Positions 3,305 through 50,114 of a DNA stretch of 64,000 nt are shown here, one piece after another. The stretch comes from a virus, in the IMG/VR virus record IMGVR_UViG_3300017528_000567, positions 124,001-188,000 of that record; one strand, 5' to 3'. Position 1 is the first letter of the stretch. Each line of letters opens with the position of its first letter. The notes beneath the pieces were generated by a model. It was not told the origin of the DNA, ran no database searches, and saw nothing but the letters and a program-made list of their open reading frames with translations. Position numbers and translations under genes: made by a program.

Positions 3305-5560
3305 ATCTAAGCCTTGCCTGCGATCGTTGCCGTAGCGGTTCTGCTGGTGCCGCTCTGCAACCTCACGTATCTCGCCCCAATCATATAGTTCCCACCAAAG
3401 TCACCGCCGCCTAAGCTCGATATCGTGATGGAGTCGACCGTGTAGAAGTTCGTGTTGTTCTGAGACACCTGGATCGAGATAGTCGTTGTTCCGTTAACAG
3501 TCCCAAACACGCTGACGTAGGGCGTGTACTGACAATCAATGGCTGTCGAGTTTCCGTTAGTTCCGGTAGAAACTGCATTCCACGCATTGGCATGCGTCCC
3601 TACCACAGCGGTCGGCGAAGGGGTCTGGTCGCTCGCGATAACGATCGGAACGCTGTTGGCCATGGTCTTCTGACCAACAGTTGGAGCTGTCGACCCGAGC
3701 CAAGCCCCGTTATTCGTGTCGAGTCTGCCGCCCACCAACGCTGCAGGGAGTTGCGGAGTGTCGACCGTGATCGAACCACCGTTATCAGTGATCGCGAGGG
3801 GGCTCTGGTCCGACGCCAAGACGACAGGGGTCGAGCTCGCCGCCGTTTTTTGCCCTAACGTGTTGATGCGAGCCGTGAAGGTCGCATCGGCTAGACGCGT
3901 GGCCAGCGTCGCTTCCGTCGCCGCGCCCGCGGGGAGAGGCAACGAAACTGCCGAAATAGGTTGTGTGGTTGTCCCCGTGGGATCGACCCGAAGAGGATCG
4001 GTCGCCGTACCCGCTTCTACAGAGCCGCCCGAGGCGGTCTTGCGGAGGGTCGCCCCAAGAACATACTGGGTGCCGGCGCCGCTATCCGCATCGAAGACAC
4101 GGATTGCCTGTAGGTTCGTGCCGTCAGAGCCGCCGATTTCAGTCGACGAAGTCGGCAACGCGGCGTTGTTGAGGCCGACCGAAAGGTTCGAAGTGGCGAC
4201 AGGGTTGTTCGGACTGATCGCGACCACCAGCGCCGGGTCCGTGGCAAGAGCAGCCGTTGAAGCAGGCTTCACGGCGGCATTGCTCGTGCCGTCAGTGATC
4301 CGCGTGCGCTGCGTACCGCCCGTCAACGTCGCGTCGAGAGCCAGACCATTCGTAGTCCCGATGTTGGCGGTAACCGTACCATCGATGGTCAGCGAGCCGC
4401 CCCCGTCAGAGATGGGTATCGAGGTCTGATCACTCGCCAACACAACCGGCGTGGAATCTGCCATCGCCTTCTGACCCAGCGTGTTTACCCGGGCCGTGAA
4501 GGTCGCATCCGCTAGCCTTGTTGCGAGTGTGGCTTCCGTGGCCGCGCCCGTCGGTAAAGGCAAGGACGTTGCTGAGATGGGCTGACTGGTCGTGCCCGTC
4601 GGATCAACTCGCAGGGGATCTGTGGCAGTGCCTGCCTCAACGGTGCCGCCCGCCGCACCCTTGCGAAGGATCGCGCCGAGCACAAATTGCGTACCGGCCC
4701 CGGTGTCCCCGTCGAAAACCCGGATTCCCCGCAAGGTGCTTCCATCAGTGCCACCTATGTGCGTGGAGAAACTGGGGACCGCTCCATTGTTGGTGGCCAC
4801 TGAAGCGTTTGAAGTTACGACGGTATTATTGGGGCTGAACGCTACGACAAGCGCTGGGTCTGCAGCGACTGCAGGTGTGCTCGCCGCTTTGACGGCGGCG
4901 TTGCTGGTGCCGTCAGTGATGCGAGTTCGAGCTGCTCCGCCCGTCAAAGTCGCATCAAGGGCAAGGCCGTTCGTAGTCCCGATGTTCGCGGTGATCGCCC
5001 CATCGATGGTCAACGACCCGCCCCCGTCGGAGATTGGCAGCGAGCTCTGGTCACTCGCCAGTACCACGGGCGTAGAGTCCGCCATGGCCTTTTGACCCAG
5101 CGTGTTGACCCGAGATGTGAACGTCGCTTCAGCTAATCTGGTGGCAAGGGTCGCTTCAGTGGCAGCCCCTGTCGGCAAAGGCAGAGATGCAGCCGTGATC
5201 GGGAGGGCTGTTTGGTCGCTCGAGACGACGACCGGCAGCGATGCTGCCATCGTCTTCTGGCCAACCGTGGGAGCCGTCGAGCCTAGCCACGCACCGCTGT
5301 TGACATCTAGACGGCTGCCAACCAGCGCGGCGGGAAGCTGCGGCGTATCGACGGTAATGGAGCCGCCGCCGTCCGCGATAGAGACAGGCGTCTGATCGCT
5401 CGCCAACACGACAGGGGTCGAGCCCGCCATGGCCTTCTGGCCTTGCGTGTTGATGCGAGCCGCGAAGGTGGCCTCAGCCACACGAGTGGCGAGCGTGGCC
5501 TCTGTGGCTGCACCCGCTGGCAAAGGCAGCGAGGTCGCTGAGATGGGCTGACTGGTTGTA
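480..5560 (-). repeat. Dispersed protein-coding repeat shared by two adjacent fibre-like genes
   Basis: A coding module of about 45-50 residues (LPLPxGAATEATLATRLADA, then TFTxRINTLGQK and STPVVLASDQ) occurs seven times across two neighbouring genes: near 740-820, 1355-1430, 2575-2650, 3880-3945, 4490-4560, 5130-5190 and 5440-5530. Copies are recognisable at DNA level as well as in protein. This is what unequal recombination or module shuffling would produce. Confidence 0.8.
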
Positions 5561-6522
5561 CCCGTCGGATCGGTGCGGAGAGGGTTTGAAGCAGTGCCTG
5601 CCTCAACGGTGCCACCAGACGCACTCTTGCGAAGGATCGCGCCTAGTACGTATTGGGTACCAGCGCCCGCATCCCCATCGAATACATGAGCGGCTTGAAG
5701 ATTACCGCTCTCATCTGGACCGCCAATCTGCGTAGACGATCCGGGAGCACCATCATTGTTATTTCCATCTGCGCCTGAGCTGACATTGCCGAAGACATAT
5801 AGAGCGCCATTTTGTGTCACACTGACATTACGATACCGAAGACTACCATCCTCAACAGAAATACCGGCAAGAACGGATTTGACCAGCGTGGCACTGGAGT
5901 CTACGCTACCATCCTCTGCAATCCGAACGGTATCAGCTCGCACGTCTTTATAGTGCAGAGTCGTGTGAATCCGGACGAATGATCCACTACCCGCACCGTT
6001 CAGATAAGAGACCCGAAAATAGTCGCCTCTGGGACCGGCTACATATGTTTTGCCTGGCCCAAGGTGATGTGTAAACCTCAGCGCCTCATCAGACTCATCG
6101 ACAGCAAAACTCCACCACAAGACAAGACCATCCGTCGCGCTGTCCAGCAACGAATAGACACTAACACTAACCGCCGCGACATCTGGTGCGTACACCCATT
6201 CGCCGACGAACGACTCATTGGGCGCAAACTCCCTAAACTCAACACTATTGGTCGCGTCGCGAACTGAAGGCGCGGAGACCCGCACCGGCTCGCCCGCGGC
6301 GTCTCCCTGGACAGTAAGAACACCGCCTGCCGGAGTCCCCGCTGTTCCCGCGCCAACGATGCTAAGCCGACCAGCAGCGTCCACCGCTATGATATGGGCG
6401 TCAGTCCCATCAGTGCCGGCCGCCAATAGAGCTTGGGTCCCCACCGGGATCGCAAGGCCATCCTCCACGGCCATCGCCACGCCGTTAGAGTCGAATAGGA
6501 TAACTGCGGGGGACTTAGCCAT
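3307..6522 (-). CDS. Tail-fibre/adhesin-like repeat protein
   Basis: A 1071-residue protein starting at an ATG preceded by a full AGGAGGT. The N-terminal 200 residues form a distinct domain. The rest is built from alternating modules: four copies with GAATEATLATRL...INTLGQK and STPVVLASDQ, two shorter variants with GAWLGSTAPTVGQK, and three copies with VFDxDxGAGTQYVLGAxLRK followed by DPLRVDPTGTT. A C-terminal domain of about 90 residues (TTISIQVSQNNTNFYTVDSI, YVRLQSGT) resembles a beta-sandwich that could bind a ligand or trimerise. The stop sits 2 nt before the ATG of the partial gene at 1-3304, which shares its modules. The likely role is a virion surface or tail-fibre component; the repeats are seen directly, the role is inferred. 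Confidence 0.8.
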   Translation of the reverse strand: MAKSPAVILFDSNGVAMAVEDGLAIPVGTQALLAAGTDGTDAHIIAVDAAGRLSIVGAGTAGTPAGGVLTVQGDAAGEPVRVSAPSVRDATNSVEFREFAPNESFVGEWVYAPDVAAVSVSVYSLLDSATDGLVLWWSFAVDESDEALRFTHHLGPGKTYVAGPRGDYFRVSYLNGAGSGSFVRIHTTLHYKDVRADTVRIAEDGSVDSSATLVKSVLAGISVEDGSLRYRNVSVTQNGALYVFGNVSSGADGNNNDGAPGSSTQIGGPDESGNLQAAHVFDGDAGAGTQYVLGAILRKSASGGTVEAGTASNPLRTDPTGTTSQPISATSLPLPAGAATEATLATRVAEATFAARINTQGQKAMAGSTPVVLASDQTPVSIADGGGSITVDTPQLPAALVGSRLDVNSGAWLGSTAPTVGQKTMAASLPVVVSSDQTALPITAASLPLPTGAATEATLATRLAEATFTSRVNTLGQKAMADSTPVVLASDQSSLPISDGGGSLTIDGAITANIGTTNGLALDATLTGGAARTRITDGTSNAAVKAASTPAVAADPALVVAFSPNNTVVTSNASVATNNGAVPSFSTHIGGTDGSTLRGIRVFDGDTGAGTQFVLGAILRKGAAGGTVEAGTATDPLRVDPTGTTSQPISATSLPLPTGAATEATLATRLADATFTARVNTLGQKAMADSTPVVLASDQTSIPISDGGGSLTIDGTVTANIGTTNGLALDATLTGGTQRTRITDGTSNAAVKPASTAALATDPALVVAISPNNPVATSNLSVGLNNAALPTSSTEIGGSDGTNLQAIRVFDADSGAGTQYVLGATLRKTASGGSVEAGTATDPLRVDPTGTTTQPISAVSLPLPAGAATEATLATRLADATFTARINTLGQKTAASSTPVVLASDQSPLAITDNGGSITVDTPQLPAALVGGRLDTNNGAWLGSTAPTVGQKTMANSVPIVIASDQTPSPTAVVGTHANAWNAVSTGTNGNSTAIDCQYTPYVSVFGTVNGTTTISIQVSQNNTNFYTVDSITISSLGGGDFGGNYMIGARYVRLQSGTSRTATATIAGKA

Positions 6523-39954: not shown

Positions 39955-40581
39955 CTACAGACAGCGGTCGAGGCCGCGATTGCTCCACTGCGGAAGACTC
40001 ACGGCGCGTAGGATGTTGAACTTCTTTGATGAGATCGAGGTGAAGATCTTTTCGTACGGCCGAAAGAGCTCGTTGTGCGCCGCCGCGATCTTGAGCTTAC
40101 TGACCGCCTTGAAGAAGCGGTGCCGGACGCGCCCCTGGGTTAGCTGGAGGCTGTTGGCAACCTCCGACTGACAGGTGGTCTGCCACATGCCGACCAGGAT
40201 ATCGACGTCGATCTGCTCGAACAGCTCGCAGAGGTCTTCGCGCAGCTCCTCTTCCGTGACAGCGGGGATGGCCAGCAAGAACTTCAGCCGCTGGATCCCC
40301 CTGTCTAGGCGGTAGCTAATCGCCGCTTGCGTCACATCAAAGATCTCAGCGATGTCCGCTTGCCGCTTCTTGCACACATAGTACAGGTAGATCAAATCGG
40401 CTTCGCGCTCAGGGATCCGGTCCAACAGCGGAGCGATCCTTGTCTCATAGTCGCCGCTAGAGAACAACGCGGAGACATCCTCCGACTCGGGCGGCGCCTC
40501 GTCATCTAAGAGCACCGCGGGAGCCGCGAAGCGATTGGCCAACTCGGCGGGGTCGACAGGGATCACATAACCGTTGGACAT
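39955..40581 (-). CDS. Sigma-factor-like protein with region-4-type HTH
   Basis: 208 residues. Residues 55-110 fit sigma-70 region 4: PEREADLIYLYYVCKKRQAD and IAEIFDVTQAAISYRLDRGI, then QRLKFLL. Residues 125-175 look like a second HTH (ANSLQLTQGRVRHRFFKAVS). No clear region 2 is present, so it may be a region-4-only or minimal phage sigma, of the kind that directs late transcription. It lies exactly at the boundary between the replication run and the structural genes, 21 nt after the NusG/FEN fusion. A role as late-gene activator is inferred. Confidence 0.65.
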   Translation of the reverse strand: MSNGYVIPVDPAELANRFAAPAVLLDDEAPPESEDVSALFSSGDYETRIAPLLDRIPEREADLIYLYYVCKKRQADIAEIFDVTQAAISYRLDRGIQRLKFLLAIPAVTEEELREDLCELFEQIDVDILVGMWQTTCQSEVANSLQLTQGRVRHRFFKAVSKLKIAAAHNELFRPYEKIFTSISSKKFNILRAVSLPQWSNRGLDRCL

Positions 40582-40602: not shown

Positions 40603-42309
40603 TCACATGCCCACGTCGGACACGGCTTCGGTGCGTCGTGACGCCTCGAAAAATGCCGTCAAGATTGGGTCCGGACGAATGTTCAGCGCCTTGATCCGTG
40701 CGCGGGCGGCCTCTTGATCTTTGTTTGGTTTGATTTGGCTGAATGGGACGTCGCATAGAGACATGAGCTCTACGTTCAGCAACACCTGCTTCTCACTAGC
40801 CCGAAGGCTCACGGCTTGCGTCTTGCTCAAGCCGGCGAGATTTGACTTGAAGAGACTGCTAACCGTTCCGTACGGCTTCAACGCCTTCGCGGCCGTCTTC
40901 AAGCCAAAGCCCGGCGCACCAGGGATATGGTCAGAAGTGTCCCCACTGATCGCGCGTAGCTGCACCATCGAGCGCGGCGGGACCCCATACTCAGCCTCGA
41001 CGGCAGCGGGATCGTACAACTTCTCTTTGCCGCCGCCCATGGCCGGGCACAGCTGATGCGTGAAGTCGTTGACCACCTGAAGTAGGTCTCGATCAGAGGT
41101 GATGATCAAGTTAGTCGCACCACTAAGCGGGCCTCGCACAAGAGCGGCCATCACGTCGTCAGCCTCCTCTTCAGCATTGAAGGCTTGATGCACACCCAGC
41201 ATTGGCAGAACCTCGCGTAACCAAGCCCAGCCAAAGGAGGGCGTCTCGGACCGTGGGATCCGGTTACCCTTGTACCCCACAAATATCGCTTTTCGACGTT
41301 GAGAGCTACCATCCCAACAAATATAGATAGAACACCGAGGAAATCGCTTGCGGTACGCAGCCACACTGCGCAGAAACCCGACGACCCCTCCAGTGCGTTG
41401 CCCCTGACTATCAGTCAGACCCGAGAGCCCCGGCGCCTCGGAGCACCGGATAAACAGTTGGGTCCCGTCAATGACCACATTTAATCCCGAGCTTTGTTGT
41501 TCCATAGGTGTAACCGGTTCCGAGTTCAGCCGATGTGACAGCGCCTCCAGGGTCCCAAGGGCGCGCGACTTTTCCACAAGGAGCGAGAGGTCTAGTACCG
41601 AGTAGAAAGCGTTGAACCAGCGGTACAGAGACACGCTCCGGTCAACCCAGCCATCTAGGCGGTAGACGGTCTCCGCCCGCTCCTTCAGCCCGTCCAGCTT
41701 ATTAGCCGGCCACTGGGAAACCTTGCGAACCGACTCAACCCAAGCCCCTATGCGCCGGACCCGTTCCCGATACGCCGTATCCGGCGACTTACACTCCAGC
41801 CGAAGGAAAGCTCTTGGCAACGTAACTAGTCGATCGGTCGACCTCAGGTGGATGTGCACCACAACCGAGTCTTGCTCCAGGATCTCCTCACGAACGGTCG
41901 CCTTGATATTCTTGTAGGGGCCGGAGATGATCGTCACCGCATCCCCGACCTCGATGCCTTGGTCCACCTCGACCGTGATCTGAGCTCGCAGAGTCTCGAT
42001 CTGGCCGTTGGTGACGGTCGCCAGCTTCTTCTCTCGCCGATTGCCCGTCACATGATAGAGCGGCGCCTGAACGTACTTCGTTTCTTCTAGCCGCAGATAG
42101 CAGTGGTCCGGATGTCTATGGCGAACGAACGCGTAGCCGTCTACCAGATACTTAAACTCCCGGATGGGTCCGCGTTCGACCACCGAGGCGGGTATGAAAA
42201 CCTCAGCATCCCTGATGTGGTGTCGAATCGAGGCTGCGATTGCAGCCGGGTCCGCACCCTCTGCCTTGGAGGTAAGTTCAAGGACCACCCATTGAATGTC
42301 ACAACTCAT
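40603..42309 (-). CDS. NusG-like (NGN-KOW) domain fused to a 5'-3' FEN/PIN nuclease
   Basis: 568 residues in one unbroken frame. Residues 1-110 read like a NGN domain (QWVVLELTS, AEVFIPASVVERGPIREFKY, VDGYAFVRHRH), then a KOW-type segment at 118-172 (GIEVGDAVTIISGPYKNIKA, TLPRAFLRLE). A helical linker follows. Residues 277-540 fit a FEN-family nuclease: VVIDGTQLFI (D281), EEADDVMAAL (E380-D385), ITSDRDLLQVV (D406, D408), ISGDTSDHIPGAPGFGLKTA (D457, D460, helix-hairpin-helix). No SD precedes the internal Met269, so separate expression of the nuclease is unlikely. The nuclease could remove Okazaki primers next to the ligase gene; the NGN part may couple it to transcribing RNA polymerase. Confidence 0.8.
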   Translation of the reverse strand: MSCDIQWVVLELTSKAEGADPAAIAASIRHHIRDAEVFIPASVVERGPIREFKYLVDGYAFVRHRHPDHCYLRLEETKYVQAPLYHVTGNRREKKLATVTNGQIETLRAQITVEVDQGIEVGDAVTIISGPYKNIKATVREEILEQDSVVVHIHLRSTDRLVTLPRAFLRLECKSPDTAYRERVRRIGAWVESVRKVSQWPANKLDGLKERAETVYRLDGWVDRSVSLYRWFNAFYSVLDLSLLVEKSRALGTLEALSHRLNSEPVTPMEQQSSGLNVVIDGTQLFIRCSEAPGLSGLTDSQGQRTGGVVGFLRSVAAYRKRFPRCSIYICWDGSSQRRKAIFVGYKGNRIPRSETPSFGWAWLREVLPMLGVHQAFNAEEEADDVMAALVRGPLSGATNLIITSDRDLLQVVNDFTHQLCPAMGGGKEKLYDPAAVEAEYGVPPRSMVQLRAISGDTSDHIPGAPGFGLKTAAKALKPYGTVSSLFKSNLAGLSKTQAVSLRASEKQVLLNVELMSLCDVPFSQIKPNKDQEAARARIKALNIRPDPILTAFFEASRRTEAVSDVGM

Positions 42310-42336
42310 TCTTAGTGATCGGCTCTACACCTGAAC

Positions 42337-43773
42337 CTAAGAATCTGGATTCCAAACTGTTCTTTTTCGATATAGCCGCATTAACTCTCCTCGCCACTCG
42401 GCTGGCTCCAGGAGCTGGTGATTACCCCGTGGCTTGGACTGAGCCGGCGCTGGCGCCTGATTGGCGCGTGAACGGGGCGCCTGTTGCTCAGATACCGTCT
42501 TCTCCATGGCCGAATTGGGCGTCGGGTCTGGAAAGCCAAGCCCAAACTCTGCGCCTACAGGTGCAATCGGCATTGCTCCAGAACCAGTACTTTTACGGGG
42601 CGAGCTCGGCGCGACCGGGGGCAAAGACTCGACAGGAGCTCGCTCTGGAACGGTCTCTTGCGACGGCGGCGGCGCCACTGCAATTTGAGGTGCCTGACTA
42701 GCGAACACCACTGGCGGCGGTGCCATCTCCGGGGGCAAGTTCCTAGCGTTCTGAGAGAAAGCCAGAACGTCTAGCTCTAGAGCTAGACGGGTAACACTGC
42801 GATGCCCCAAAAACCACTTGGCGAATCTGACCACATGGTCCTGATACTTATCGTAGACCTGCTCGGCTAAGGTCTTGTCGACGTAGGCGAGATCGGCATA
42901 CCAGCCATGAGCCATCCGATAGGTGTTCATGGCTGCTTCAGCCAGACCGGCTGCAACCTCATCTGCGGGCGTCGCCTCGCACGCTTGACGAACCAAATCG
43001 ATGGCCTTGAGCGGGTTGTCGAGGCTCAGGAGGATCTGATAGTACAGGGTTACCACAGAGAGATTCAGATACTCTCTGACACTTGCTACGGTGATCGGCC
43101 CGAGCTGCGCCATCATCTCGAGATTGTTGAGCACGTTGCGGACGTGCCCCCCGGCCCGATCGATGATGATCAAGACAGCGTCATCCTCGTGCTGGACCCC
43201 CTGCTCGTTGAGCACCATCTTCATGCGGGGCAACACGTCGTCCCGCGTCACCTTCTTGATCGTGTACTCCTCACACCTTGAGCGTATCGCACCACGGATC
43301 TTTTCCGCCTCCGTGGTGCAGAGCATTGCGACCATCTTCTTTTCTTCGATGGGCTTCAACAGCACATCTTGAGCCGCGTGGTGCATACGCTGGCACTCGT
43401 CGATCAGATAGATCCGCTTCGGGGCGTTTGGGAGCATGTACGGGAGCTCCTCGACCAAGCTCCGCATGCTGTCCGTTGATCCGCTGCTTGCGGCGTCGCG
43501 CTCAGTGAACGCCTCAGACTGCTCTTGCAGGATAGCTTTGCAGCTGTCGCATGCCCCGCACGGCTCGGGGTCGGCCTTGTCCAAATCCTGGCAAAGCATC
43601 GCCATCGCGTGGATACGGCTCAGGGTCGTTTTTCCCTGGCCGTACCCACCCGCGAAGATGTAGCTAGTCTCAAACGCCGTACCCCTACTGATCCGAGTTT
43701 TGAGAAGCCGCACACTGCCGGCCTGACCCAGAACGTCCGAATACTTGCGTGGCCGATACAAAATATCCCACAC
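42337..43773 (-). CDS. DnaX-like clamp-loader ATPase (gamma/tau-type)
   Basis: 478 residues. Opens with YRPRKYSDVLGQ, typical of DnaX. Walker A GGYGQGKT at 42-49. A four-cysteine zinc module C61-x10-C72-x2-C75-x2-C78. Walker B region YLIDECQRMH, where the usual DEVH is DECQ. SRC motif RSRCEEY, then lid and collar helices (GGHVRNVLNNLEMMAQLG). The C-terminal 150 residues are a Pro/Ala-rich tail (APPPVVFASQAPQIAVAPPP) ending KRTVWNPDS, possibly tau-like. It would open and load the beta clamp (46662-47942) together with the delta and delta-prime candidates at the right edge. Confidence 0.85.
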   Translation of the reverse strand: MWDILYRPRKYSDVLGQAGSVRLLKTRISRGTAFETSYIFAGGYGQGKTTLSRIHAMAMLCQDLDKADPEPCGACDSCKAILQEQSEAFTERDAASSGSTDSMRSLVEELPYMLPNAPKRIYLIDECQRMHHAAQDVLLKPIEEKKMVAMLCTTEAEKIRGAIRSRCEEYTIKKVTRDDVLPRMKMVLNEQGVQHEDDAVLIIIDRAGGHVRNVLNNLEMMAQLGPITVASVREYLNLSVVTLYYQILLSLDNPLKAIDLVRQACEATPADEVAAGLAEAAMNTYRMAHGWYADLAYVDKTLAEQVYDKYQDHVVRFAKWFLGHRSVTRLALELDVLAFSQNARNLPPEMAPPPVVFASQAPQIAVAPPPSQETVPERAPVESLPPVAPSSPRKSTGSGAMPIAPVGAEFGLGFPDPTPNSAMEKTVSEQQAPRSRANQAPAPAQSKPRGNHQLLEPAEWRGELMRLYRKRTVWNPDS

Positions 43774-43790: not shown

Positions 43791-44276
43791 CTAGGCTTGG
43801 ATCTGTGTCTGCGCAATCGTCTCCACTACCTCCTGTGCGCGAGCCTCAAGGTTCAAGCGCTGCGCGACTTCCACCATGCCGGAAAGCTCGTCCGTCCATG
43901 CGCCATGCCGGTTGAGGATCGACGTGAATTCCTTGACGTCTGCCTCACGCATCACCCACTTCATTGCGCCACTCTTCTCATCCTCGACGCCGGTGCACGA
44001 TTCGAGTAGGTGGTCTACGAGCGCATTACGCTGCCGCTCGGAGAGCTCGTTCCAGCCATCCAGCGCAACCTCCAGCAAGAAGTCCCGCTCCAATAGGAAC
44101 TCGAGTGCCCCTGATATCTTGCGGGCCTTACCGAGCACCGCCCGCCCCGCCTTCTTACCGGCCTTGTCCACGAAGATGTAGACAATGCGCGCTGTCGCGA
44201 GCTCAGGGTGATAGGTTGGGATCAAACGAAGCGCAATCTCTTCTACCGTTTCTGCTGGGCCGTATTCTCTAGCCAT
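43791..44276 (-). CDS. Degenerate phage metallopeptidase-like protein
   Basis: 161 residues. The fold follows the putative phage metallopeptidase family: TYHPELATARIVYIFVDKAG, LDGWNELSERQRNALVDH, KWVMREADVKEFTSILNRHG. In active members the segment after the WxxL...qR..LvDH region is HELxH. Here it is H89-L90-L91-E92-S93, so the catalytic Glu and second metal His are absent. The protein probably lacks protease activity. It lies between the primase and DnaX-like genes, 17 nt from each side. The family assignment is from recollection and would need a profile search. Confidence 0.6.
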   Translation of the reverse strand: MAREYGPAETVEEIALRLIPTYHPELATARIVYIFVDKAGKKAGRAVLGKARKISGALEFLLERDFLLEVALDGWNELSERQRNALVDHLLESCTGVEDEKSGAMKWVMREADVKEFTSILNRHGAWTDELSGMVEVAQRLNLEARAQEVVETIAQTQIQA

Positions 44277-44292: not shown

Positions 44293-44982
44293 TCACCCGA
44301 GGGGGTCTTTAGCTCTGGTCAGCTCTTGGATGAACGGGATGAATCGCGAGTCGCCCCATGCTTCCCACAAGTCTCCCGGGTCCTTGACGCTGCCGGGTGT
44401 TGGATACGACACGATATACACCTCGAGCTCACCACCGTGATCTCGCGCGAAGCCCGCACAACCACGGCGACCCGCCGCATCCATGTCATACCCAACCCAA
44501 ACGCGGTCAACGACTCGTTTGAGCAGCCTCGCGAACCTGGGGTTGGCCCGAGCTGTCAGCGTGGCCACCACAGGGGCAAAGGCCCGTTGGATCGGAAATA
44601 GATCGAAGGCGCCTTCAACGATGAACGCTGAACGCGTCTCGCTCATGGGTTTGGCCGCCTGACCAAGCCCAAATAGACAAGCCTCATGCAGATCAGGCAG
44701 ATAGTCCGAATACCCAGACTTCCCCCGCTCGACATTGCGAACCTGGAACCCTTTGACCTCGCCGTGTGCATTGGTCAGCGGAAACAGCAGGACGTCCTTG
44801 GTCTTACCCGCCGCCCAGGCACGGAACTCGTCCGGCACCCCCTCGGGCAACTCGTTGTCCAGATAGCCAATCCCGTATTGGGCCATCTGGGAGTCAGAAA
44901 CTCCGCGGTCAAGCAGTGCGTCTCGGACCCGGTCGTCAACCCGAGTGACCGCATAGCCGACCAAATCATCCATCCAGCTCAT
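44293..44982 (-). CDS. DnaG-type primase catalytic core (TOPRIM)
   Basis: 229 residues from the ATG at 44982, which overlaps the upstream stop as ATGA; a longer frame to 45003 is not needed. Residues 15-110 resemble the N-terminal part of the DnaG core (ALLDRGVSDSQMAQYGIGYL, LFPLTNAHGEVKGFQVRNV). Residues 125-200 are TOPRIM: FIVEGAFDLFPIQ (EGxxD) and VWVGYDMDAAGRRG (DxD), with PGSVKDPGDLWEAWG at the end. No N-terminal CHC2 zinc-binding domain is present. It would synthesise RNA primers for lagging-strand replication, with the DnaX-like and clamp genes nearby. Confidence 0.8.
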   Translation of the reverse strand: MSWMDDLVGYAVTRVDDRVRDALLDRGVSDSQMAQYGIGYLDNELPEGVPDEFRAWAAGKTKDVLLFPLTNAHGEVKGFQVRNVERGKSGYSDYLPDLHEACLFGLGQAAKPMSETRSAFIVEGAFDLFPIQRAFAPVVATLTARANPRFARLLKRVVDRVWVGYDMDAAGRRGCAGFARDHGGELEVYIVSYPTPGSVKDPGDLWEAWGDSRFIPFIQELTRAKDPLG

Positions 44983-45512
44983 GGGGCCACTGCCACAAAG
45001 CAACGGTCCACACGATAGGCAAGCACGCCCACATAGTCCCCAACCCTGGTATGGAGCCCAGCCGCGGAGGGCTCAGCCACCAAGAGCGCGAGCCCATCGG
45101 AGAAGCCCCCGTCCAACACCCTCACGTCACCCGGGCCGCCCCCCAGCCACGGCCCGCCCACCAGGTGATAGGGCTTGACCCCGTGGTCCGACATCACGCG
45201 CAATGCCTCGCCCACGGTAGAGGCTGCAGAGCGCCAGCCGTTCACGTTTGTCCTGTCGAGCAGCACCCGATGGAACTCCTGCAAAAGCGTGCCTTCCTGT
45301 TTCACGGAACACTCCGAAAAGCCGTACCTTGCGTAGCCCGCGCTCGACACCCTGCTCTGTAAGAAGGTCCCGCGAGTCGTTGTAATCAGGAGAGGCTCAA
45401 TCGAGCGGTCCTGAACATCAACCTCGGAAGCGAGAGGCATCGAGTACCCAACTTGGCCGGCGCGCAGCCGATGCCTCTCTGTAATGAAGATCTCAGACAA
45501 TAGGGTGAGCAT
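44979..45512 (-). CDS. Unknown protein of the primase cluster
   Basis: 177 residues from the ATG at 45512, which follows GAGGGG; the longer frame to 45605 overlaps the upstream gene by over 90 nt and is rejected. Mixed alpha/beta with LTLLSEIFITERHRLRAGQV, a LLQEFHRVLLDRTNVNG block, VMSDHGVKPYHLVGG and GGGPGDVRVLDGGFSDGLAL. Cys at positions near 90 and 172. It overlaps the primase start by 4 nt, so a primase partner is possible. No family was recognised. Confidence 0.6.
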   Translation of the reverse strand: MLTLLSEIFITERHRLRAGQVGYSMPLASEVDVQDRSIEPLLITTTRGTFLQSRVSSAGYARYGFSECSVKQEGTLLQEFHRVLLDRTNVNGWRSAASTVGEALRVMSDHGVKPYHLVGGPWLGGGPGDVRVLDGGFSDGLALLVAEPSAAGLHTRVGDYVGVLAYRVDRCFVAVAP

Positions 45513-45514
45513 CT

Positions 45515-46033
45515 TCACCCCTCGGGGGGTAATAGGGCCGGGGCGGCGCGAACAAGGGGCTCTGGTCGGATTTGCAGTAGGCGAAAAAGAAGCGCCTTCC
45601 ACCATGGCAGCCTAGGGACCATCTCCGACCCAAGAGCCCACAGGAGACCGTAGACCTCTGGCAGGTTCGCGCTGACCCACTCAAGATCGCGGAGCTCCCC
45701 CTTGAACTGTTCCTCTAGCAGCGCCTTGTTAAGGACGGAGGAAAAATATGGACAACGCTTCGCATCGATCGGGTCCTCACAAATAGTCCCCGGCCACGAA
45801 GTAGGGTCCTCCGCACCCAACATACACAACCCGATCACCGGCAAGCTTTTGCCCGCGATACGGTTGTACTGCTCATTTTCCTCGCCAGCGACTTCTTTGC
45901 GGACATCCAGGGGGTGCCGGCGATTATGACGACAGAGGTGCGGGAGTCGAGCGCTAGCCTCCGCAACCCTCCGGTCAACTTCTAGAGTCAACAGGTAGCG
46001 TATTCGGTCTTGGACTTCCAGCTCGGTTCTCAT
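45515..46033 (-). CDS. Unknown protein with four conserved-looking cysteines
   Basis: 172 residues. Cysteines at 34 (PHLCRHNRRHPLD), 70 (IGLCMLG), 85 (GTICEDPID) and 94 (AKRCPYF), with two His after C34. The spacing C-x35-C-x14-C-x8-C fits a metal or Fe-S site more than a simple zinc finger. The C-terminal half is hydrophobic and helical with several Trp (LEWVSANLPEVYGLLWALGS, PRLPWWKALLFRLLQI). It lies one gene from the primase core, which lacks a zinc-binding domain, and overlaps the Rad50-C start by 4 nt. Function unknown. Confidence 0.6.
   Translation of the reverse strand: MRTELEVQDRIRYLLTLEVDRRVAEASARLPHLCRHNRRHPLDVRKEVAGEENEQYNRIAGKSLPVIGLCMLGAEDPTSWPGTICEDPIDAKRCPYFSSVLNKALLEEQFKGELRDLEWVSANLPEVYGLLWALGSEMVPRLPWWKALLFRLLQIRPEPLVRAAPALLPPEG
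45518..45523 (-). promoter_or_regulatory. Shine-Dalgarno for the unknown primase-cluster gene
   Basis: GAGGGG lies 5 nt before the ATG at 45512, with the TGA stop of the upstream gene (45517-45515) between them. It fixes the start and makes the two genes translationally coupled. Confidence 0.55.
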
Positions 46034-46698
46034 GACTTGCCCAACCTCTGCAGATCCACATGGGGGAGGCCCTCGGAACCGACACGCTCGGTAGCCCGAT
46101 ATGCAACGTTGGCGTGCTCCAAGAACGCAGGCTTGTGCGTGACCAAGAGAATAGAGAAGCCTGTCTTCTCGGCCAGCCCTTTCAGGAATGCCCCGGTCTG
46201 GTCAATGTAATCATCCGAGACGGCCGCCAAAGTCTCATCGAGCACGAGTAGCGGCCATTTTCCTAGGCGGGTCATGGTTAGGACTTTCAGAATCAGTGAG
46301 GCCACACTGCTCGGCCCACCCCCAAAAGCCTCCAGGGGGTGAGCTCTGATCGACACGCGCTTGTGGTCCTGCCGAAGGTAGAAATCGATGGCCACCTTGT
46401 TGTAGCGCTGCTGGACCTCTGCCTCGAACACCATCGTCTGATCGTCAAAGACTGCTCTCAGGCCCTCCGTGACCACCATTTCAATCGACCTGACATGTGC
46501 CATGACGAGCATGTCCATCAAGGACCGGAACAGCTCGCTCACCTTGGCAAGGACATCGAGCCTACGCGTGAGCTCGCCAACGTCCTTGCTCTTGGCCTCT
46601 CTGTCCTGCAGCAGTCTCCGGCGAAGCGTCTGGTGAGCGACAGCCGCTTGCCGCACTTCGATCAATCGATCCCGGGTGCGAACCTGGTCACTCGACAT
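46030..46698 (-). CDS. Rad50/SbcC-type ATPase, C-terminal half
   Basis: 222 residues. A short coiled coil (about residues 15-60) leads into the signature-like AFGGGPSSVASLILKVLTMT, Walker B WPLLVLDETLAAVSDDY (D-E at the usual positions), and an H-loop segment FSILLVTHKPAFLEHA. No Walker A is present. The complementary half with Walker A is encoded 3.4 kb away at 50107-51345, so the two would have to associate to form an ATP site. It overlaps the clamp gene upstream by 37 nt, ending KSDQVRTRDRLIEVR on its own frame. Confidence 0.75.
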   Translation of the reverse strand: MSSDQVRTRDRLIEVRQAAVAHQTLRRRLLQDREAKSKDVGELTRRLDVLAKVSELFRSLMDMLVMAHVRSIEMVVTEGLRAVFDDQTMVFEAEVQQRYNKVAIDFYLRQDHKRVSIRAHPLEAFGGGPSSVASLILKVLTMTRLGKWPLLVLDETLAAVSDDYIDQTGAFLKGLAEKTGFSILLVTHKPAFLEHANVAYRATERVGSEGLPHVDLQRLGKS

Positions 46699-47942
46699 TC
46701 ATACGCCCCCTTAGGTGGGTACTCCGTGTCTGCTGGCGGGTTATCGCTTAGGCCTCCGACGACCACGCCATCCTCACTCAGCAGGAAGCCATCGATCGTT
46801 CTGAACATGAAACGGTCCTTGGGCCGGCGCTCGTCAGCAGGGATCACCTTGATCCTGAACTCCACCTTGTCGCCGCGAATCCCCTCAAAAAGATGCAGCA
46901 TCTGGTTCACGTTTACGTTCATCGCCAGAGGCTCGGAGACCTTGACCTCGATCTTCTCCGTGGGCACCGGGTCAGAGGACAGCGTGTTGCTCTCCTCCGC
47001 ACTCGATAACCTGATGACCCCCGTAGCTGGATCAAAATGCATGCGGATCTTCGTCTTGGTCTTGTCCTTGTCCTTCGCCAAGCTGTCTCGCATGTACTTG
47101 AGCTGCGACCCGATCTGGTCACGGGCAACCCGGACGACCACCTCATCGGTCTTGGCGTAGTAGCTGAATTTCTTGTACTCGATCGTGTGCCGTGGCCAAC
47201 CGAGCACGTCGCCCCGCCCATTGATCATGTAGACCTTGGTGTCGGTCTGGTACGTCGAGACGTTCCCCGTGGAGCGGCCCAAGAAGGACTCGATCAAGCC
47301 CAGGTGCTGGGCTGGCAAGGACAGGTCCTTGTCCATGAAGGCCGGGCACTGCACGTAACAGATCTCTTTGCTGTTGGACGCGAGCATGTAGCCGTTCGCC
47401 CGTGCGAGCTCGGGGTCAGCGTTGCCAAAGATTCGAATCGTTTTGAAAACGTCCTGGTCAAGCACGTCCCCTGACTTAGGCAAAAAAGACTTTGCCAACC
47501 CGAGCCCGAACTGAAGGATCTTGATCGAGAACTCCTTCGGAGGCACCGACTCCTGCGCAGCGGCGATATCCCTCTCGAACATGTGGGTGCTTCGTGGGTC
47601 AAACGAGACCCGCTCATTAGAGCCCGACTCGCCGAACGTGTACTTGACCTTGCAAGCACCGTTCTCTTCAGTGGCCTTGAAGTTGATCGACCCAGAGATA
47701 TGACCCAACCCCTTGATGGCCTCAGAGGGTAGGATGAAGGCACCTTCGCCAGTTACATCAAAGATCGGGAATGACGAGCGCGCCTCGTGCTTGCCATCTC
47801 GCGAGTACACATCGCAGGTGTCCCGACGAACCATCATGAGATACCCGCCGCCCGTCTGCGGGGTGACTTGGGGGGCAACGATTGAGGCGATCCCGATCGC
47901 CCGGTTCAGAGCCGATGCGTCAACTGTGAATGTGATTTCCAT
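46662..47942 (-). CDS. Beta-sliding-clamp-like protein (DnaN-type)
   Basis: 426 residues, longer than the about 370 of bacterial DnaN. It starts with MEITFTVDASALNRAIGIAS, a typical clamp N-terminus, and contains GEGAFILPSEAIKGLGHISG and a conserved-looking third-domain region (VNVNQMLHLFEGIRGDKVEF, FMFRTIDGFLLSEDGV). The C-terminus TRFAPGID lacks the classic MPMRL end. It would tether the phage DNA polymerase. The presence of gamma, delta and delta-prime-like subunits nearby supports the call. The assignment is by pattern, not search. Confidence 0.7.
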   Translation of the reverse strand: MEITFTVDASALNRAIGIASIVAPQVTPQTGGGYLMMVRRDTCDVYSRDGKHEARSSFPIFDVTGEGAFILPSEAIKGLGHISGSINFKATEENGACKVKYTFGESGSNERVSFDPRSTHMFERDIAAAQESVPPKEFSIKILQFGLGLAKSFLPKSGDVLDQDVFKTIRIFGNADPELARANGYMLASNSKEICYVQCPAFMDKDLSLPAQHLGLIESFLGRSTGNVSTYQTDTKVYMINGRGDVLGWPRHTIEYKKFSYYAKTDEVVVRVARDQIGSQLKYMRDSLAKDKDKTKTKIRMHFDPATGVIRLSSAEESNTLSSDPVPTEKIEVKVSEPLAMNVNVNQMLHLFEGIRGDKVEFRIKVIPADERRPKDRFMFRTIDGFLLSEDGVVVGGLSDNPPADTEYPPKGAYECRVTRFAPGID

Positions 47943-48243: not shown

Positions 48244-49140
48244 TCAAAAGCTGACGTCGCCCTCCTCTACACCGCGCTTTCGATCCGCTGTTCGCTGGGC
48301 CTTGAACTCATCCGACTGCACCTTCTTGCCCTCTTTGCACTGAGACAAAAACTTGCAAAACTTGCACATAAAGCCCGGCGTAGGAGGGAACAGCTGGAAG
48401 GGGTCAGCGCCTTGCTCGATCCGCTTGATAGCCACCCCCACCTCTTCCAGCGCCCCCACAACCGCGCCCCGCAGGTCTCTTAAGTCTTGAGTAGTCGGGG
48501 TGCTCCAATCCATGCTCTCAGCCGGTTCGGACCGCCAATAGAGAAACCCGACCTTGTCTGGGATGACTCCGTGCTTCATCTCGTAAAGCATCGAGTACCA
48601 TCGAAGCTGCCGATGATTCGTATAGGTGTCGCGGTACCTCGACCCCTTGCCGTCGACCAACACCAGGTCTTTGGTCTGAACCCGAGTCATCACAAAGTCG
48701 GCACGACCGCCGATACGATGCCCACCAAAGTCAACGTCCAGATTCAACTCTGCCTTGGCATCTAGGCCAATCAGACCATGCTGCCGTATGCTGCTCAACC
48801 CCCGAGGGATCGTAGTACGGACCTCGGAGATCACCTCATCTAGAGACTTGGTCCCCTCCTTCAGCGATGGGTCCTTCCAATTGAAGACCCCGCCCTTTTC
48901 GGTCTCCTTGGTAAGGATGCGCTCGATGGTCGGCGTAACCAACGCTTGAAGCCTCGCGGTAGTGTTCGACCGCCAGATCTCATCCCTATAGAAGGCCTCG
49001 AAGATCTTGCCTACAGCATCGCCGTAGAGCATGTTGACCCGGTTCTCTGGTTCCTCGAGCCGGACCTTGGCGATGTAGCCCAGGTAGTATGATTTGCGGC
49101 ACGACGCCAAAATGTCGTAGCCAGAATATGAAATATACAT
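48244..49140 (-). CDS. PD-(D/E)XK nuclease, Cas4/RecB-like, probable Fe-S
   Basis: 298 residues. Nuclease motifs: GGRADFV (D148), LVDGKG (D163-x-K165) and a Q-containing helix (NHRQLRWYSMLY, Q178). Fe-S ligands: C14 (ILASCRKSYY) with C259-x2-C262-x5-C268 (FMCKFCKFLSQC) at the C-terminus, the four-Cys arrangement of Cas4 and AddB-type nucleases. It probably degrades or nicks ssDNA ends and lies between the clamp-like gene and Mre11, with which it overlaps by one base. Position suggests a role in DNA end processing or recombination. Confidence 0.8.
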   Translation of the reverse strand: MYISYSGYDILASCRKSYYLGYIAKVRLEEPENRVNMLYGDAVGKIFEAFYRDEIWRSNTTARLQALVTPTIERILTKETEKGGVFNWKDPSLKEGTKSLDEVISEVRTTIPRGLSSIRQHGLIGLDAKAELNLDVDFGGHRIGGRADFVMTRVQTKDLVLVDGKGSRYRDTYTNHRQLRWYSMLYEMKHGVIPDKVGFLYWRSEPAESMDWSTPTTQDLRDLRGAVVGALEEVGVAIKRIEQGADPFQLFPPTPGFMCKFCKFLSQCKEGKKVQSDEFKAQRTADRKRGVEEGDVSF

Positions 49141-50114
49141 CAGCCGCCCCTCGGTTGAGCCAGGTACTTGAGCGCGAGCTCACGGACATCGGCCGCGAAG
49201 TCCATGGCCTCGATGTTCGATTCAATAGTCTTCGTGGGGTCGAAACTGGCGTCTGCCTGCAACAGTTGAACGAACGCGTCGATACTGCGGGCTTCAGCCT
49301 CACCCCGCTCTTTACGCTCCATGTCAAACACATCGGCAGCCGGAGCCACCACCAGCGGGTGTTCGGTCGTCTGAATCAGTGACGGCGAGAACTCCACCAA
49401 CGAAACCTTGGGAGCTCGCTCAGTGTTCTCTCTAGTGAGAGCGCCGCGCGACACGGCCCCCTGGTTCACGAAGCGTTTGCCGGCGAGCTCAACGATCCCT
49501 TGATCTCGGTGCCAGTGACCGAACATCCAAACATCCGGCCCGTCCGGCGTCGCCAGGTCGGCATATCGAAACACCGGCTCCCCGAAAAAGTCCTCTACTT
49601 TAGAGGGTGGGTTCTCACTTGCCAGGGCGTGCACTACGGCCACTAGGAAGTCGTCACCGGGTTTCTTCTGAATCGCGAGCAGATCAGCGAGTGACCTCCG
49701 CGGGTCATAGGGCACCCCGACCACCCGAACACGCAAGCCGCCATCCTCGAACACGGCCTCCCGCAAGTGGCGGAACACGCCGCAGCTGTACAGGACCCCG
49801 AGGGGCTGATGCTCGATGCTGGCCAGATTGTTGTACTCGAGATCGTGGTTGCCCTCGACACAGAACACGGGGCAGGGGTAGCCCTTGTGGAGCTCCGCCG
49901 TTTGGCGGATGGCCCCGTGGCTCGTTCGTCGCGCCGTCTTGATGTGAAAATAGTCGCCCCCATCAAGGACGGCAGTTGCGTCTCGCGCCTTGGCGAGCTG
50001 CCCGATCTGTTCAAGGTTGGACCAAATCTCAGCCGGGTAGTCGCCCTTCCACGATGCCGGGCTCTTGTCCGCGACGTGAGTATCAGTGCGGAAAACCAGA
50101 GCTACTCTAGGCAT
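49140..50114 (-). CDS. Mre11/SbcD-like nuclease subunit
   Basis: 324 residues. Metallophosphoesterase motifs in order: D11 and H13 (RTDTHVADKS), LDGGDYFHIK (Asp), VEGNHDLEY (Asn-His-Asp), VAVVHALA (His) and FGHWHRDQG (His-x-His). The C-terminal 100 residues are helical and less conserved. With the Rad50-type halves it would form a complex that opens and trims DNA ends, as gp47 does in T4. It overlaps the upstream gene by 8 nt and the nuclease gene downstream by one base. Confidence 0.85.
   Translation of the reverse strand: MPRVALVFRTDTHVADKSPASWKGDYPAEIWSNLEQIGQLAKARDATAVLDGGDYFHIKTARRTSHGAIRQTAELHKGYPCPVFCVEGNHDLEYNNLASIEHQPLGVLYSCGVFRHLREAVFEDGGLRVRVVGVPYDPRRSLADLLAIQKKPGDDFLVAVVHALASENPPSKVEDFFGEPVFRYADLATPDGPDVWMFGHWHRDQGIVELAGKRFVNQGAVSRGALTRENTERAPKVSLVEFSPSLIQTTEHPLVVAPAADVFDMERKERGEAEARSIDAFVQLLQADASFDPTKTIESNIEAMDFAADVRELALKYLAQPRGG

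Follow-up and report, generated by a model that had tools for sequence, protein, structure and literature searches.

The window analysed here is a stretch of 64,000 nucleotides that covers bases 124001-188000 of a virus record of 255,478 bases (G000). On its minus strand, at positions 40603-42309, lies a gene for a protein of 568 amino acids with an ATG start at 42309. A sequence-only reading of this DNA had claimed that a NusG-like domain and a FEN-type nuclease are joined here in one unbroken frame. It did not state the strand, but in all else this claim is borne out: the frame runs without interruption from 42309 to 40603, and profile matches, structure prediction and several dozen relatives all place both domains in a single gene. 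The domain limits hold as well, with NGN and KOW together at residues ∼5-173 and the FEN domains at ∼278-442 and 443-523. On the minus strand the NGN-like domain (residues ∼5-116) occupies positions 41962-42297 and is recognized by profile, Foldseek and NCBIfam matches. It is followed by a KOW beta-barrel (residues ∼119-173; 41791-41955), which is supported by Pfam and structure superposition and carries an LRS loop at 155-157, by a helical linker (residues ∼174-268; 41506-41790), delimited by AlphaFold helices and column identity, and by a PolI-type 5'-nuclease or flap endonuclease module (residues 269-568; 40606-41505), identified by Pfam, Foldseek and its acidic residues. The full-length AlphaFold model has a mean pLDDT of 84 and a pTM of 0.53, and the relative orientation of NGN/KOW and FEN is not fixed in it. 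Linker helices are predicted with low confidence at residues 176-198, 202-233 and 242-262, and in the alignment of relatives the linker evolves fast (mean column identity 21%).

The gene belongs to a cluster on the minus strand that consists mainly of replisome genes. Next upstream is a DnaX-like clamp loader (42337-43773; Pfam PF13177, 1.8e-25; phrog_5846, 1.9e-47), and further upstream are a primase TOPRIM protein (44293-45003; phrog_47, 6.9e-19), a sliding-clamp-like protein (46662-47942), whose homologue in L004 matches phrog_947 with an E-value of 2.9e-7, and an ATPase gene. The next gene downstream encodes a sigma-70 region-4-type protein (39955-40581; Pfam Sigma70_r4, PF04545, E = 3.4e-15); it begins 21 nt after the fusion gene and has a good Shine-Dalgarno (SD) sequence. 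The sigma-like neighbour had been taken as a sign that the link to transcription is not random. The neighbour is real (Pfam E = 3e-15), but it belongs to a long-conserved operon and is by itself no proof that the nuclease acts in transcription. Between the primase and clamp loader genes, a conserved protein at 43791-44276 (minus strand) matches PhageMetallopep (PF18894, E = 2e-26). By eye, the region at 48244-50114 (minus strand), just upstream of the clamp-like gene, encodes a Mre11-type phosphoesterase and a Cas4-like nuclease; this putative pair lies near a Rad50/SMC-like ATPase (46030-46698), a set that resembles T4 gp46/47.

Taken alone, the window protein gives weak matches in its N-terminal half (Pfam KOW, E = 0.004; phrog_6386, transcription antiterminator, 3.8e-6; the PDB NusG entry 2lq8, E = 0.001). 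A profile of 43 relatives aligns residues 4-167 with residues 3-170 of Thermotoga maritima NusG (2lq8) at E = 3.3e-11, and nearly all its remaining matches are NusG or Spt5 chains. Structure predictions for the full chain and for the N-terminal half alone agree with this: in a Foldseek search the full AlphaFold model matches NusG of the lambda-N antitermination complex (E = 1.2e-8), and all 30 significant matches (E<=1e-3) of a model of residues 1-180 (pLDDT 88) are NusG, Spt5 or RfaH chains, with E ~2e-8 against NusG 6gov_G/9a56_B. These matches rule out that residues 1-172 resemble NusG by chance. Two-domain TM-scores of the 1-180 model against NusG-type chains are low (about 0.4), probably owing to a different placement of NGN and KOW, and KOW alone superposes on the C-terminal domain of M. 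tuberculosis NusG (2mi6; TMt 0.81, rmsd 2.0, 60 columns). The match to the bacterial NusG equivalog TIGR00922 in NCBIfam (E = 4.7e-7) reaches 29.8 bits, below the curated cut-off of 135.7. Pfam NusG matches occur at the fusion gene of G002, G005 and G006, over the cut-off in G006, and also at the separate NusG gene of G008. With NGN followed by KOW, the order that defines the NusG/Spt5 superfamily, the N-terminal half is, by profile and model, a NusG-superfamily protein far from the housekeeping equivalog.

The KOW loop sets it further apart from housekeeping NusG. At the IFGR position, which we take to be the S10 and Rho contact of NusG, the fusion proteins read LRS, and this replacement is near-invariant (L155 in 41/43 relatives, R156 in 42/43, S157 in 43/43). 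RfaH, which does not bind Rho, lacks the Rho-binding residues (PMC7819879). Since LRS replaces the IFGR loop, recruitment of Rho by the window protein appears doubtful. In summary, the fusion has in common with bacterial NusG, RfaH, LoaP and UpxY (TIGR00922, NF033641, NF033644) the NGN and KOW order, the fold and a core with invariant Trp7 and Tyr59/Phe61, while it differs from them by scores far under the equivalog cut-offs, the LRS loop and the nuclease added at its C-terminus.

In its C-terminal half the window protein matches Pfam 5_3_exonuc_N (PF02739; E = 8.2e-23, 81.4 bits versus a cut-off of 34.3) and 5_3_exonuc (PF01367; E = 6.2e-14, 52.7 bits versus a cut-off of 40). The best Foldseek matches are FenA of M. 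smegmatis (6c35, E = 4.5e-18) and the Taq 5'-nuclease. The full set of metal-binding acidic residues typical of 5'-3' exonucleases and FENs, seen already in the sequence-only reading, is present: D281, D333, E382, D384, D385, D406, D408, D457 and D460 occur without exception in the fused relatives (40/40), and they align with acidic positions of Taq and FenA. Profile searches detect no polymerase domain on the chain, and only the 5'-nuclease part of DNA polymerase I is matched. By domain identity this half is thus a PolI-type 5'-nuclease, presumably an active one, that shares Pfam domains, nine acidic residues and fold with FenA, the Taq polymerase 5'-nuclease, ExoIX/Xni and T5 D15. Known FENs, however, normally stand alone or precede a polymerase, whereas here the FEN is carried by a NusG module.

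What these halves may serve was assessed in eleven records (255-529 kb) of this group of uncultivated giant phages, which are metagenomic and possibly fragments, and in which a missing gene may not be truly absent. None of the eleven has a match to the RNA polymerase beta domain (PF00562), which speaks against a phage-encoded multisubunit RNA polymerase as the partner; the polymerase on which NusG and the sigma protein act is therefore most likely that of the host. Family C DNA polymerase is likewise not found in the 11 records; a family-A DNA polymerase is present in all of them, elsewhere in the genome. In the window phage its gene stands apart from the fusion gene, at a distance of about 128 kb, and the enzyme has no 5'-nuclease domain. 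Exactly one 5'-nuclease, at the fusion locus, is found in 9/11 records, and never more than one per genome; a second FEN or second NusG was looked for and none was found. As the sole 5'-nuclease detected, encoded in a replisome-type cluster beside a polymerase that has none of its own, the FEN most likely serves phage replication. In G006 (C1 296443-298908, 1422 aa) and in LR745208.1 (285077-288784, 1763 aa) the match to family-A polymerase is broken into two or three segments within a single long open frame, a pattern that suggests inteins or insertions.

Relatives were gathered with the protein, its alignment and the N-terminal half, then with the sigma gene as an anchor, and the resulting >80 loci were scored with NusG, FEN and sigma profiles. 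Three arrangements were found: NusG-FEN fused and followed by sigma; NusG, FEN and sigma as separate genes in this order; and NusG followed by sigma without FEN. The same domain order in one uninterrupted gene recurs in 42 distinct relatives, which come from many different assemblies, and persists down to about 35-40% identity. In a 64-row tree built from the sigma proteins, in which neither the root nor the long branches are certain, the 42 fused rows form one group with two split rows (support 93/87), 18 other split rows form another (100/100), and NusG-only rows fall outside both. The two split lineages within the fused clade (L076, L100) break exactly at the FEN start, leaving the linker with NusG. 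The sister clade (L111, L114, L116-L131, L133, L134) has homologous domains in the same order NusG-FEN-sigma, but NusG and FEN are two adjacent genes, several of which overlap by 4 bases, and there is no long helical linker. The simplest history of these loci is one fusion and two later splits, a direction that we infer from the sigma tree; the genes may also have fused early and come apart again in the split clade.

In LR745208.1, an uncultured phage of 485 kb, a NusG protein with 28.5% identity also lies between the clamp loader and the sigma gene, but no FEN was found elsewhere in the record; its clamp loader gene bears an intein-like HINT insertion (L041 7167-9053; Pfam Intein_splicing, E = 2e-5; PT-HINT, 1e-5). 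Nor was a FEN detected in the record of 358 kb to which L113 belongs. In L109, L112 and L113, the NusG-only gene is followed by two tandem sigma region-4 genes (about 4152-4916 and 4977-5600). Among 50,697 deposited phage records searched the fusion was not found: the FEN half alone is matched in 196 records, and the NusG half matches LR745208.1 only. The best 50 BFVD matches include no viral structure that aligns end to end, only separate FEN and NusG/RfaH models. A bacterial source was considered and rejected, as 13 FEN matches on genome contigs have no NusG nearby.

The sequence-only reading had also pointed to the lack of an SD sequence at the internal Met269 (codon 41503-41505, minus strand). 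This is true for the window gene and its close subclade, in which Met269 is invariant, and an SD-driven start there is not supported; it is no argument against internal initiation, however, because the main start, too, lacks an SD. Met269 corresponds to an internal FEN start of other fused relatives. Of the fused genes outside the window subclade, 27 were left after thinning, and 23 of these have ATG, GTG or TTG three codons ahead of the Asn with which the FEN core begins; most valines and leucines in this column are encoded by GTG or TTG. The mean anti-SD pairing energy at this codon is -5.6 kcal/mol, against a flat level of about -2.8 along the linker. By a Wilcoxon test this difference has p = 2e-5, or 2e-4 when the rows are thinned to 60% identity. 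Shuffling of synonymous codons with residues kept explains much of this excess and leaves a remainder with p = 0.025 for rows related by descent, so we regard the peak as good but not final evidence. Judging from these codons and the SD peak, most fused relatives probably also make a free FEN from the nested start. The window subclade keeps a Met a few residues upstream of the nested-start column without an SD, and the fusion is probably its main product. In all nine lineages of this subclade a GTGTAR motif precedes the SD-less main start by 13-29 nt, a position at which no other clade has it: GTGTAG at 42325-42330 (minus strand) in the window, with copies at 5980-5986 in L005, 5979-5985 in L006, 3229-3235 in L007 and 5981-5987 in L009. 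It may be a promoter or an unusual translation signal; CAGTGTA is not enriched across the window as a general element.

The reading we favour, if not with great assurance, is a bifunctional protein that couples a NusG/RfaH-type factor for the host polymerase to the only FEN detected in the phage, arisen, in the simplest case, by a single joining, with a probable nested free FEN in most relatives. Its N-terminal half would be an elongation factor that binds host RNA polymerase, a contact we infer because no beta-subunit gene is detectable in related phages, and keeps the enzyme processive on phage DNA without the usual recruitment of Rho or S10. Its C-terminal half would be the flap endonuclease that provides the separate family-A DNA polymerase with the 5'-nuclease it lacks, removing primers or flaps, and could also clear RNA:DNA flaps where replication meets transcription. 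Two neighbouring genes of one replication/transcription operon would have become one through an in-frame linker, most simply in a single event, and in most fused relatives the nested start would place free FEN beside the polymerase-tethered form. A coupling of replication to transcription by such a protein is plausible, and the covalent tie may bring some benefit. The earlier proposal that the gene ties primer removal or the processing of R-loops or RNA flaps to elongation thus stands as far as the covalent fusion goes; the functional tie is hinted at rather faintly.

It is quite possible, though we think it the lesser prospect, that the fusion is functionally neutral, i.e. that coupled genes of an operon were joined, the halves work independently and the link serves co-expression or fixed stoichiometry only. 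Separate sister-clade genes with their short overlaps, the two lineages split at the FEN start, the nested signal in 23/27 genes and the hardly conserved linker all speak for it. Because the neighbours are separate in the sister clade, have been re-split twice and have an internal FEN start in most relatives, the covalent tie is not strictly required, which suggests that NusG and FEN functions can work apart. On the other hand, 42 distinct relatives have kept the fusion down to about 35-40% identity with two splits only, and the window subclade retains it with no internal SD. We would entertain, tentatively, a further idea: one gene with nested starts may yield both a polymerase-riding fusion and a free FEN to settle encounters of replication and transcription (RNA flaps, R-loops, primers), the window subclade having given up the free form.

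It seems rather unlikely that the NusG half carries the FEN to transcription complexes mainly against R-loops or RNA flaps. The nuclease is physically tied to a module expected to reside on RNA polymerase, and enzymes of the FEN family are able to cleave flaps that contain RNA. For NusG/Spt5 and antitermination complexes, the limiting of R-loops has been discussed (PMC6391919, PMC7819879). However, this is the only FEN found in a genome whose family-A polymerase has none, and among mainly replisome genes a replication role is the simpler need. Still less probable is a bridge between the replisome and the host polymerase that couples late transcription to replication, by analogy with T4, where the replisome clamp activates late transcription and gp45, gp33 and gp55 bring replication and transcription parts together on host RNA polymerase (PMC2988020). 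The gene does lie between a clamp loader and a sigma-like gene, and the cluster also encodes a clamp-like protein, but the likeness is one of gene content alone, and the T4 system has neither NusG nor a nuclease fusion. That a frame error or misassembly joined two genes, which do occupy the same place in the sister clade, is ruled out for practical purposes by the 42 distinct relatives, assembled in many separate data sets, that carry the fusion unbroken.

Phage NusG and phage FEN are each already known, since there are viral models annotated as RfaH and NusG and many exonucleases, and what is described here combines known families in a new domain architecture. The literature searched, whose coverage was incomplete, yielded no paper that mentions NusG for huge or jumbo phages, and the NusG-FEN fusion is apparently an unreported, real link between transcription and replication parts; the covalent tie itself is real and long-lived. 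NusG-family factors are universal, and the processes to which they link transcription are set by their partners, such as Rho, the ribosome or antitermination complexes. A replication nuclease, attached covalently, would add a new kind of partner. With this one protein, the coupling between replication and transcription in giant phages would become directly testable, and the clade supplies natural controls, in which NusG stands by itself, has a separate FEN beside it, is fused to FEN or has been split from it again.
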